From Lachnospiraceae bacterium (GTDB lineage Bacteria > Bacillota > Clostridia > Lachnospirales > Lachnospiraceae): DNA of 52,155 nt. The notes under the pieces are model-generated. The model was given only the letters and a program-made list of their open reading frames with translations, ran no database searches and had not been told where the DNA came from. Of the stretch, positions 45,675-52,155 are shown piece by piece; position 1 is the first letter of the stretch; every line of letters starts with the position of its first letter. The translations under genes and the position numbers were made by a program. Location: positions 1 to 52,155 of the forward strand of contig JAUNAG010000001.1 in assembly GCA_030527685.1 (NCBI GenBank), written 5' to 3'.

Positions 45675-45704
45675 CTACGTCGAAGTTAGTTTAAATCAAC
45701 TAAC
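45658..45704. promoter_or_regulatory. Two DtxR-like inverted repeats over the FTR1 promoter
   Basis: TTAG-AGTATG-CTAA (45658-45671) overlaps the -10 box. GTTAGTT-TAAATC-AACTAAC (45685-45704) starts right after the predicted transcription start. Both show the TTAG...CTAA half sites of DtxR/IdeR-family boxes rather than the Fur box. Iron-dependent repression is inferred. Confidence 0.55.
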
Positions 45705-45747: not shown

Positions 45748-47529
45748 ATGAAACAAAGAAGAGGAATTCCGGCAGGCTTTCGCAGCCTGATGATCCTTCT
45801 GCTGGCAGTTACATTGGTGATGGCACCGGTAAGCAGTGTTTTGGCAGCTGCTGAGGATGCATCTGCAGGAAATCGCTGGGGAGCGGCAGCGGATGAGATT
45901 GACAAGTATCTCGATGCGGCCTTTGAAGCGTATCTTGCCGGTGATGCAAAAGCGGCCTACAGCAATGTGAACGATGCGTACTTCAAGGTGTACGAGGTAA
46001 CAGGCTTTGAGCGCCAGACCATGAGTTATGTGTCCGGACCGCGCAAGAATGCCGTAGAGCTTCAGTACTCCACCTGTAAGGCGGCAGTTAAGAAGGACAA
46101 TACAGATCCGGAAGTACAGAAGGAGGTTCGTACCGAACTCAACAAGCTGAAGAGCATGATCCGTGAGGACGGCAACAAGCTTGCACAGAAGGACGGTGAG
46201 GAACAGACCGTTACAAAGTATTATCTGAACGGCGAACTGACGGCGACAGACCCGTATGCAGATTATGCGGGTGATCCGAATGCAGCCGTTACCTACGCCA
46301 GCTGGGCGGCAGCGGCAGAAGCGCTGAACGAGCTGCTCGACACGGCATTTACCGCATATAAGGGAAAAGATTTCGAAGCAGCAAAGGACAATACACAGAC
46401 CGCCTTCTACATGGTCTATGAAGAGTCCGGACTGGATCACGCACTCTACAAGGAACTTTCCGTCGAGGATCGTCTGGAAGTGGATCAGCGCTTTGCGGAT
46501 CTGCAGGGACTGATCGAGGGAGAGAAGTTCCAGAGAAATGCAGTGCAGAGAGCGATTCGTCAGCTGAAGAATGTCATTACGGCAAAGGCTGCTTCTCTGG
46601 ATGAAGCGGCAGCAGCAAAGGCTGCCGAGGAGGCAGCGAAGGCTGCTGAAGAGGCTGCAGCTGAAGAAACAACGACAGAGGATCAGAGCTGGCTGACCTT
46701 CCTTGCAGCATTTGGCATCATCGTCCGCGAAGGTCTGGAAGCAATTCTGGTTATCGCAGCGATTATTGCCTACCTCGCAAAGAGCGGCAATAAGAAGTCG
46801 CTGAAGAATGTTTATGTCGGCGGTGTTCTCGGAATTGCAGCAAGCTTTGTGGCAGCAGCGATTCTGTACTATGTCAAGCAGGCATGGACGGGAGCCGGCC
46901 AGTCACAGGAATTTATCGAGGGTATCACGGCGCTGATTGCAGTGTGTGTTCTCTTCTACGTCAGCAACTGGATGATCTCCAAATCCGAGGCAGCTGCCTG
47001 GTCGAATTACATCGACGGCAAGGTACAGTCCTCTGTTGAGAGAGGATCCGCTATGGCACTGGCCTTCACCGCATTCCTTTCTGTATTCCGTGAGGGAGCC
47101 GAGGTCGTGCTCTTTTACCAGCCGATGCTGGGCGAGGGACATGCCAATATGGTCTGGGCCGGATTTGCAGCCGGCTGTGTCCTTCTGGTATTTGTCTATC
47201 TCGCAATCACGAAGCTTTCCATTAAGCTTCCGATCAAGATCTTCTTTACGGCAACCAGTATCCTGATGGCAGTGATGTGCGTCTCCTTCCTTGGAGCAGG
47301 CATCAAGGAGCTTGCAGAAGGCGGTCTCTTCGACGTCGTACTCCGCGTAACAGGTATTCCGGAAAACGATGTCATTCAGATCTTCGGCATCTATCCGTAT
47401 CTTGAAACACTGGTACCGCAGCTGATCCTGGCAGTTATTCTTCTTGTGACCTTCATGATGGCGCACTACAGAAACAAGCTTGCGCTGAAGGATGCCGAGA
47501 TCAGAAAGCTGCAGGGCAGCGGCAATTAA
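45748..47529 (+). CDS. FTR1-family iron permease with extracellular domain
   Basis: This 593-residue protein has a signal peptide (about 1-34, VLAAAED) and two related alpha-helical extracellular repeats. These are residues about 46-145 (DAAFEAYLAGDAKAAYSNV) and 188-285 (DTAFTAYKGKDFEAAKDNT). An Ala/Glu-rich linker (about 288-312) leads to a seven-segment FTR1 permease. The two iron-motifs are REGLE (327-331) and REGAE (448-452). FTR1 permeases move ferric iron after oxidation or with P19 partners. It leads an operon with P19, DUF2318 and FtsX-type genes, the arrangement known from Campylobacter P19 loci. GAAGGGG precedes ATG 45748. Confidence 0.93.
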   Translation: MKQRRGIPAGFRSLMILLLAVTLVMAPVSSVLAAAEDASAGNRWGAAADEIDKYLDAAFEAYLAGDAKAAYSNVNDAYFKVYEVTGFERQTMSYVSGPRKNAVELQYSTCKAAVKKDNTDPEVQKEVRTELNKLKSMIREDGNKLAQKDGEEQTVTKYYLNGELTATDPYADYAGDPNAAVTYASWAAAAEALNELLDTAFTAYKGKDFEAAKDNTQTAFYMVYEESGLDHALYKELSVEDRLEVDQRFADLQGLIEGEKFQRNAVQRAIRQLKNVITAKAASLDEAAAAKAAEEAAKAAEEAAAEETTTEDQSWLTFLAAFGIIVREGLEAILVIAAIIAYLAKSGNKKSLKNVYVGGVLGIAASFVAAAILYYVKQAWTGAGQSQEFIEGITALIAVCVLFYVSNWMISKSEAAAWSNYIDGKVQSSVERGSAMALAFTAFLSVFREGAEVVLFYQPMLGEGHANMVWAGFAAGCVLLVFVYLAITKLSIKLPIKIFFTATSILMAVMCVSFLGAGIKELAEGGLFDVVLRVTGIPENDVIQIFGIYPYLETLVPQLILAVILLVTFMMAHYRNKLALKDAEIRKLQGSGN

Positions 47530-50879: not shown

Positions 50880-52155
50880 ATGACGAAAAGAAGAATGTAT
50901 CTGAGAATGGTGACGGCAGCTCTGCTGCGCCGCCGTTCAAGAATGCTGATTGCGCTGCTTTCCATCGCAATCGGTGCGACCATTCTGTCCGGTCTTCTGA
51001 CCATCTATTACGATGTCCCGAGACAGATGGGGGCACAGTTCCGCGGATACGGAGCAAATATGCTGCTTCTGTCCTCCGGTGAGGAGACCATGACAGCGGA
51101 CGGTGCTGCTGATGCACTGAAAGCAATTCCGAACGGCAATCTGGTCGGTGCATCACCCTACCGCTATGTCAGGGTGGATATGCAGAGCAGACAGCAGTCC
51201 TTTACGGCAGCAGGAACCGATTTCGAGCAGGTCCAGAAGACAAGCCCGTACTTCCAGGTTGAAGGAGAGTATCCGTCAGGCAGACATGAGGTGCTGATCG
51301 GAAAACAGATTGCTTCTACAATCGGAACCAAAGTCGGCGATATCATGGAGCTGACTTATACGCCGGCTGCAGCAGCAGAAAATACAGCAGATTCCGGAGC
51401 CGAGGCACTTGCAGCAGGAACAGAAGTGTACGGCAGTGCACCGGGCTGGAGTGATCAGATCGTCAAGGTTACAGTTAAGATCGGTGATGATCAGACAATT
51501 GAAGAACTGACAGTCGATGCATCCGCACAGACACCGGAAATCGGCGGTCAGTGTGCAGAAGAGAGCTTTACTTCTCAGTTTATCGGCAAGACCATTCCGG
51601 TAGCTGCAGATGACATTGATGCGATATCCGGTGCGACTATGACATCCAATGCGGTTCTGCAGGCGGTCAATACAGCACGGGCAGAGCAGAAGAAGGATGA
51701 TCCGACAACGATTACCTTTAAGGTCACCGGTATTCTGGACACGGGCGGTGATGAAGAGAGCTACGTCTTCATGTCCATGTCCGATATGGGCGATCTGACA
51801 GGCAACGATCAGAATCTGGATGTTATGGAGCTCAGTGTTTCCGCATCACAGGATGAACTGGAAGGCTATGTAAATGCAATTGCAGGCAGCAGCTCACAGG
51901 TGCAGGCGCGACTTGTCAAGCGCGTCACACATTCAGAGGCTTCCGTTCTTGCAAAACTGCAGGCACTGGTGTTCCTGGTCACAATCGTCGTTCTGCTGCT
52001 GACCATGATCTGCGTTTCGACAACCATGACCGCTGTCGTATCTGAGCGCCGCAGAGAAATCGGTCTTCGCAAGGCACTGGGTGCTTCCGATAACAGTATT
52101 CGAATGGAATTCCTCGGAGAGGGAATGTTCCTCGGTCTGCTCGGCGGTCTGCTCG
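50880..52155 (+). CDS. FtsX/MacB-type permease with inserted FMN-binding domain (partial)
   Basis: The gene starts at ATG 50880 (GGAGCGAG upstream) and runs off the window end; 425 codons are seen. TM1 spans about 20-40 and the FtsX part begins near 360 (ERRREIGLRKALGAS). The extracellular domain reads GKQIASTIGTKVGDIMELTY up to 160 and resumes at TFKVTGILDTGGDEE from 279. In the preceding paralogue these segments are adjacent. Between them, residues about 192-267 form an FMN_bind domain: DQIVKVTVKIGDD, QTPEIGG, FIGKTIPV and AISGATMTSNAVLQAV. SGAT (250-253) is the flavinylation motif of NqrC/RnfG, with Thr253 the likely FMN site. Covalent flavin, made by an ApbE elsewhere, would make this permease redox-active. 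Confidence 0.88.
   Translation, partial: MTKRRMYLRMVTAALLRRRSRMLIALLSIAIGATILSGLLTIYYDVPRQMGAQFRGYGANMLLLSSGEETMTADGAADALKAIPNGNLVGASPYRYVRVDMQSRQQSFTAAGTDFEQVQKTSPYFQVEGEYPSGRHEVLIGKQIASTIGTKVGDIMELTYTPAAAAENTADSGAEALAAGTEVYGSAPGWSDQIVKVTVKIGDDQTIEELTVDASAQTPEIGGQCAEESFTSQFIGKTIPVAADDIDAISGATMTSNAVLQAVNTARAEQKKDDPTTITFKVTGILDTGGDEESYVFMSMSDMGDLTGNDQNLDVMELSVSASQDELEGYVNAIAGSSSQVQARLVKRVTHSEASVLAKLQALVFLVTIVVLLLTMICVSTTMTAVVSERRREIGLRKALGASDNSIRMEFLGEGMFLGLLGGLL

Follow-up and report, generated by a model that had tools for sequence, protein, structure and literature searches.

Why would a permease of an iron-uptake operon carry a flavin-binding domain? The question arises at the end of a 52,155-nucleotide stretch of DNA from a Lachnospiraceae bacterium (GenBank assembly GCA_030527685.1, contig JAUNAG010000001.1, positions 1 to 52,155; "the window" below), where the gene for FetC, an FtsX/MacB-type permease, stands in an operon with genes for FTR1 and P19. 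An initial annotation, made from the sequence alone, had claimed a flavin mononucleotide (FMN)-binding domain in this permease and an electron path to the cell surface that reduces or releases iron during uptake. We find the domain, and we favor, at a probability of about 0.5, the reading that it is a tethered flavin arm carrying out a redox step of iron uptake; flavinylation, electron donor, acceptor, direction of flow and the role of ATP are what we infer.

An FMN_bind domain inside FetC

The main features are the following.

50880..52154, + strand: FetC, FtsX/MacB-type permease with built-in FMN_bind domain; the gene continues past the window, 488 amino acids in all
51369..51704, + strand: FetC insert, residues about 164-275, absent from unfused orthologues
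51462..51677, + strand: FMN_bind domain proper, residues 195-266, by Pfam, genome profile search and predicted fold
51636..51638, + strand: codon of T253 (in DAISGATMTS), the presumed covalent FMN site for ApbE; T253 invariant in 60/60, D..xGAT in 86/86

In the open reading frame that starts at 50880, Pfam places FMN_bind (PF04205) at residues 195-266 (E = 2.1e-12; 48 bits against a curated cut-off of 22), and a PF04205 profile search of the contigs of the genome recovered the same position. The domain is flanked by MacB_PCD (residues 23-158) and FtsX (residues 366-424), and a gene for an ABC_tran ATPase adjoins. The FMN-type matches of the insert in NCBIfam are RnfG models, with NqrC the weakest, all under the cut-offs set for whole proteins. 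The window ends inside the gene; the 488 amino acids on the contig include four unknown residues at an assembly gap. The AlphaFold model (predicted local distance difference test score 87) shows a LolE/MacB-type permease with an NqrC/RnfG-like domain, and fold searches, which covered 425 of the 488 residues, agree. The initial annotation therefore holds on the three points on which it had been made to depend: the FMN_bind match is significant, the genome encodes ApbE, and an NqrC-like fold is predicted.

The size of the insert had first been put at about 115 residues (162-276) by comparison with the neighboring permease, FetB. The insert is real, but FetB is a paralogue, and orthologues, which are the stronger test, place it at about 164-275, some 112 residues that are missing from orthologues in other genera. 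The unfused FetC of genome G142 aligns with the window protein in two pieces, 1-163 and 276-425, at 69-70% identity with nothing between. The insert sits between two strands, in a hairpin of the extracytoplasmic domain.

The target threonine of FMN_bind domains has, we take it, the form D-x-x-x-G-A-T, and T253 in FetC fits. A survey of homologues, proposed in the initial annotation as a check, found the same insertion at 86 loci, or 84 distinct inserts (L100 and L042 are identical records, as are L131 and L044). The SGAT target that had been assigned to ApbE is borne out: the putative motif D..xGAT is kept in all of them, L114 included, and T253 is invariant in 60 aligned fused FetC proteins together with D247, G251, A252, S256, A258, Q217, T218, G222, G236 and P240. 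The insert is not a product of chance, because it recurs at all these loci and each time with the target motif. The invariant threonine bears also on how a flavin would be held. The domain might bind a flavin or another ligand non-covalently and in this way receive the substrate of FetBCD, such as a flavin or a chelate; that substrate is unknown in print (PMC10783030). A pocket for a loose ligand would not need the residue expected for ApbE to be invariant in 60/60, and we regard this explanation as improbable.

The ratio of non-synonymous to synonymous substitution rates (dN/dS) was 0.06-0.44 for the insert (18 of 21 pairs with a value) and 0.08-0.20 for the core (20 of 21 pairs); these values are rough, with synonymous sites near saturation and no value from the remaining pairs. 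The insert evolves faster than the rest of FetC yet is under constraint. Its faster change, and an assembly gap about 450 bases beyond it, are what an assembly chimaera or a decaying passenger domain might present, but 84 distinct sequences in many assemblies, with the dN/dS range given above, reduce the probability of either to almost nothing. An assembly artefact was rejected because homologues carry the same insert.

Distribution, replacement and origin of the insert

Among 150 genomes of the family, each from another genus, a strong FetC match (>130 bits) was found in three besides the window's own (G142, G147 and G072), and residues about 164-275 were missing in each. FetC matched at E 1e-30 in 9 of the 42 genomes of the genus sample; within the genus it is fused in six (the window's own, G154, G181, G182, G186 and G187) and unfused in three (G166, G176 and G177). 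The six fused proteins then served as query for 84,980 species genomes in one scan. It yielded 376 pattern hits and 360 relatives, and the best 80 of the relatives were taken as loci; these were chosen by likeness to the fused query and do not give a frequency of the fusion. All 80 encode FetC with the FMN domain. Every title among these best 80 of 360 names Clostridia or a subgroup (Clostridiales, Lachnospiraceae, Oscillospiraceae, Christensenellaceae, Blautia and others), and 29 name a ruminant gut site. Encoded near the fused FetC are the ATPase (79), FetB (78), FetA (70), P19 (64) and FTR1 (59), several contigs ending within the operon. Wider draws on P19 comprised 9 of 393 genomes of the class (completeness at least 90%) and 17 of 398 of the phylum; the window's own genome was in both, and the fusion was present only there.

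The distribution of the fusion is matched by that of a separate FMN_bind gene of the type of SifE, the separate FMN-domain protein of B. breve bfeUO-sifABCDE (PMC5449479, 2017). Directly after the ATPase gene, the unfused genomes G147, G072, G166, G176 and G177 have a small FMN_bind gene, which Pfam confirms in G147, G166, G177, G072 and L145; a simple pattern finds a lipobox-like cysteine near the N-terminal start in 16 of 18 of the small proteins. In the stretch examined around the window's operon there is no separate FMN_bind gene, and DUF4418 follows the ATPase gene. The adjacency test used loci with at least 800 bases after the ATPase gene, which left 14 fused and two unfused loci unjudgeable, and added 24 loci from the class and phylum draws. 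An adjacent small FMN_bind gene was absent from all 70 fused operons and present in 18 of the 28 unfused ones (Fisher p = 6e-13, ignoring kinship). Farther off, a large FMN_bind protein is encoded in six fused loci (L098, L103, L114, L115, L126 and L132). The whole assemblies of G154, G181, G186 and G187 (82-94% complete) yield just two FMN_bind matches each; once FetC and an RnfG-type protein are counted, none is left over for a SifE.

Such a replacement suggests a redox role for the insert, as the initial annotation had supposed. The flavin could alternatively be a redox sensor whose state gates the ATP-binding cassette (ABC) cycle with little electron flux, and an extracytoplasmic hairpin is a good place for allostery. 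The insert stands in for a separate lipoprotein, however, as would be expected of a mobile carrier more than of a gate, and we consider sensing quite unlikely.

The surroundings of the unfused genes are of some interest in themselves. In G142 (L039:7301-13428), the closest unfused relative, there is neither an insert nor an adjacent SifE, and a reductase with flavin adenine dinucleotide (FAD) and FMN_bind domains follows the second ABC pair. In G147 (L040:9268-13009) SifE is followed, as judged by eye, by a putative small cytochrome b-type membrane protein and a fumarate-reductase-like pair, a possible set of redox partners. SifE-type proteins at L040:8793-9242 and L058:7618-8082 match the model for PplA (NF041941) weakly, at 21-25 bits and far under the cut-off of 325; PplA is the flavoprotein of extracellular electron transfer.

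To place the insert, a tree of FMN_bind domains was built from 26 of the 86 inserts, 18 SifE-type rows and 41 others over 116 columns. The 41 include two copies of SifE rows and two SifE-like rows, and the SifE row L142 has a long branch and an odd make-up. The inserts form one group (100/93) joined to 18 RnfG-type rows (99/86), while the 18 SifE rows fall in a separate group with four more rows (99/93, 22 rows). When six of the RnfG-type rows were scanned with NCBIfam, rnfG models were best in 6/6 and 4/6 were over the rnfG cut-off; two fused proteins match RnfG models, whereas two SifE proteins match only the PplA model, weakly. A captured SifE gene was considered as the source of the insert, and the domain tree and profile scans speak against it. 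The insert is not of the SifE type, belonging to another group and not being a separate gene; nor is FetC an RnfG, its gene lying in an iron operon and a separate rnfG on contig C190.

A tree of FetC with the inserts removed held 36 fused rows, for which 31 of the best 80 loci had been drawn (L138 was dropped, L141 and L156 omitted). Together with the unfused G142 these rows make up a clade (100/100), and its sister group consists of four SifE-type operons from the same family. G142 is nested in the fused clade with weak support (90/90) in the full tree and lies outside it in a smaller tree (24/8); its lineage may have diverged ahead of the insertion, or the insert may have been lost from it. 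The simplest history that these sequences allow would be that an RnfG-like domain was inserted once while the separate gene is absent, so that one branch of the fold replaced another and no neighbors were fused.

Flavin attachment, electron supply and direction

The operon reads FTR1, P19, FetA (FtrD-like/DUF2318), FetB, FetC, ATPase, DUF4418 and a second FtsX/ATPase pair. Its first six genes, in that order, place it with the P19/FetMP-FetABCD systems, and Pfam matches confirm the P19, FTR1 and DUF2318 assignments of the initial annotation. The usual seventh gene, for a thioredoxin or an FMN-binding protein, is not found, and an FMN_bind domain lies inside FetC instead. Upstream of FetC are:

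45685..45704, + strand: perfect inverted repeat GTTAGTT-N6-AACTAAC just upstream of FTR1, seen by eye, a possible iron-responsive operator
45748..47529, + strand: FTR1/EfeU-type iron permease (FetM position), Pfam FTR1 85.5 bits
47625..48179, + strand: P19 iron-binding protein (FetP position), Pfam Iron_transport 190.7 bits
48267..49541, + strand: FetA, helical membrane part and FtrD-like/DUF2318 domain with five invariant cysteines, Pfam FtrD-like 102.9 bits
49557..50858, + strand: FetB, FtsX/MacB-type permease without insert, Pfam FtsX and MacB_PCD

The FetA cysteines C360, C363, C377, C380 and C395 are invariant in 60 sequences and in a set of 38. Of 83 loci, five (that of the window and four more) have the pattern of the inverted repeat ahead of FTR1, against a mean of 0.1 in simple shuffles, and 14 have a looser pattern, against 5.6; the repeat is possibly an iron operator of the DtxR/IdeR-like type. 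In the same upstream region, boxes of the Fur and IdeR types were rejected, the best matches being 12/19 each. DUF4418 and the second FtsX permease/ATPase pair (L005:3534-5832, L157-L164) accompany the P19 operon in both fused and SifE-type Clostridia, though not in all.

The search for apbE proposed in the initial annotation found one ApbE in the window's genome, at 304 bits. Across the genomes checked, many of them incomplete, ApbE is present in 31 of 34 fused (not in G182, G975 or G992) and 5 of 6 unfused (not in G176), and RnfC in 31 of 34 fused (not in the window's own, G975 or G983) and 6 of 6 unfused. PF04205 matches the window's genome in three places: FetC, RnfG on contig C190, and a FAD_binding_2 reductase on C155. 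On C190, a short contig, rnfG stands beside rnfD and two Rnf-Nqr genes. In this RnfG (L007:843-1478) SGCT stands in place of the usual SGAT flavin target; judging from the motif, it may be unflavinylated, or the threonine may be used all the same. In G177 (L178:1477-3072, - strand) RnfD and RnfG are a single fused protein (NQR2_RnfD_RnfE at 16-315, FMN_bind at 437-524), and open reading frames of about 520-573 amino acids in related genomes may likewise be RnfD-RnfG fusions.

We propose the following course of events. A domain of the RnfG kind would have been inserted, most simply once, into the extracytoplasmic hairpin of FetC, one of the two permeases of FetBCD, and would have taken over the job of a separate SifE-type FMN-binding lipoprotein. 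ApbE would attach FMN to T253 outside the membrane. The flavin would take electrons from a membrane source encoded elsewhere, for which Rnf is the best candidate, and pass them to the cysteine domain of FetA or to Fe(III) near P19; the iron, thereby reduced or released, would enter through FTR1. ATP use by FetBCD might move the arm or reset the cycle.

Several observations weigh against this proposal. The fused loci are one clade, so the 0/70 pattern counts for about one event. In ten of the 28 unfused operons, belonging to G142 and to nine distant members of the phylum, no SifE gene is adjacent, and the operon can thus exist without one. ApbE was not found in three of the fused genomes or RnfC in three, the window's own among the latter. 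All 34 fused genomes checked contain two or more FMN_bind matches, so ApbE need not be present for the sake of FetC. The insert-bearing hairpin aligns with the Hook of LolC only at low identity. In the membrane part of FetA no histidine is kept in >90% of 60 sequences, and a fold search with the FetA model gave 0 PDB matches at E 0.001 or better. The histidine count led us to reject FetA as a heme-type electron conduit. The operon has no obvious transmembrane electron carrier, so the electron path of the initial annotation would have to start elsewhere, perhaps at Rnf.

Electrons may also run the other way. FetE and FetF of C. jejuni, thioredoxins in the seventh slot, may act as oxidases (PMC10783030). 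In this reading the flavin would accept electrons, so that FetA thiols or P19-bound iron stay oxidised for uptake of the FTR1 type; Rnf or a reductase of fermentation would be the electron sink. FetE resembles thiol-disulfide oxidases, extracts of the double mutant reduce more (PMC10783030), and Fe2+ oxidation is predicted to be used in transport by an FTR1-type permease (PMC11966278). The hosts, however, are titled Clostridia and presumably anaerobic, so that an oxidant would be scarce, and the proposals published for an FMN protein in the seventh slot favor reduction (PMC6083913, PMC8238504). We consider the reverse direction unlikely.

Read as a Rosetta Stone, the fusion hints that FetC is the site of action of the redox protein, and it hints at the hairpin involved. 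The Hook of LolC recruits LolA, and the position suggests that the redox protein acts on FetC where LolC holds its partner. More speculatively, and in our view improbably, FetBCD might be an ATP-timed device for electron delivery and not a solute pump, a covalent flavin arm in the Hook position being swung between a membrane donor and the iron-handling proteins; in other species SifE or thioredoxins would dock at the same hairpin.

Comparison with known systems

A separate FMN protein in P19 operons has already been published (PMC5449479, PMC6083913, PMC8238504), and the built-in form alone looks new. Most Proteobacteria were described as having a thioredoxin as the seventh gene, and Firmicutes, among other groups, an FMN-binding protein, with gene lengths similar across 33 species (Liu 2018, PMC6083913). 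An FMN-binding gene of undefined role was reported in 260 P19 clusters, mostly Gram-positive (Meheust 2021, PMC8238504); permease, FtsX and MacB have 0 occurrences in the main text of that paper and are likewise absent from the passages of PMC11334425 consulted. Among the titles and abstract openings listed by our literature searches, some of whose lists were cut short (20 of 24 and 12 of 68 matches), there was no paper on an FMN_bind domain built into FetC, a weak negative since subscription journals and bioRxiv lay largely outside their coverage.

Each of fetA, fetB, fetC and fetD is required in low iron, and the function and substrate of FetBCD are given as unclear (PMC10783030); a requirement for growth in low iron is reported for homologous systems (PMC10783030, PMC6083913, PMC5449479), and sif and apbE mutants of B. 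breve are sensitive to iron chelators (PMC5449479). What FetBCD does (PMC10783030) and what the FMN or thioredoxin protein of the seventh slot contributes (PMC8238504) are open questions in these papers. A natural fusion that is stable over dozens of Clostridia, many from the ruminant gut and without the separate gene, hints at where the redox part of the machine sits. If the proposal is true, ABC permeases would be a further site at which covalent flavin is put to use outside the membrane.

The first six genes of the window's operon stand in the same order as in FetMP-FetABCDEF/P19 (C. jejuni 1649-1656; E. coli FetMP). Unlike those operons, it has no thioredoxin or FMN-protein gene in seventh place, its redox domain lies within FetC, and DUF4418 and a second FtsX/ATPase pair follow. 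The bfeUO-sifABCDE system of B. breve is likewise Gram-positive, with an FTR1-type permease, FtsX permeases, an ATPase and an FMN-binding domain suspected of a redox role (PMC5449479). SifE there is a separate membrane-anchored protein, whereas the FetC domain is part of the permease and, judged from tree and profile, belongs to the RnfG and not the SifE kind. RnfG and NqrC share the FMN_bind fold and the D..xGAT motif with the insert, RnfG being the nearest group in the domain tree; unlike them, the insert is not a subunit from an Rnf or Nqr operon and is placed within a permease domain, between two of its strands. The permease fold of FetC is shared by LolC of LolCDE, and the hairpin with the insert aligns with the LolC Hook. 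The Hook, however, is about 11 residues that recruit a separate protein, whereas FetC has a whole domain built in.
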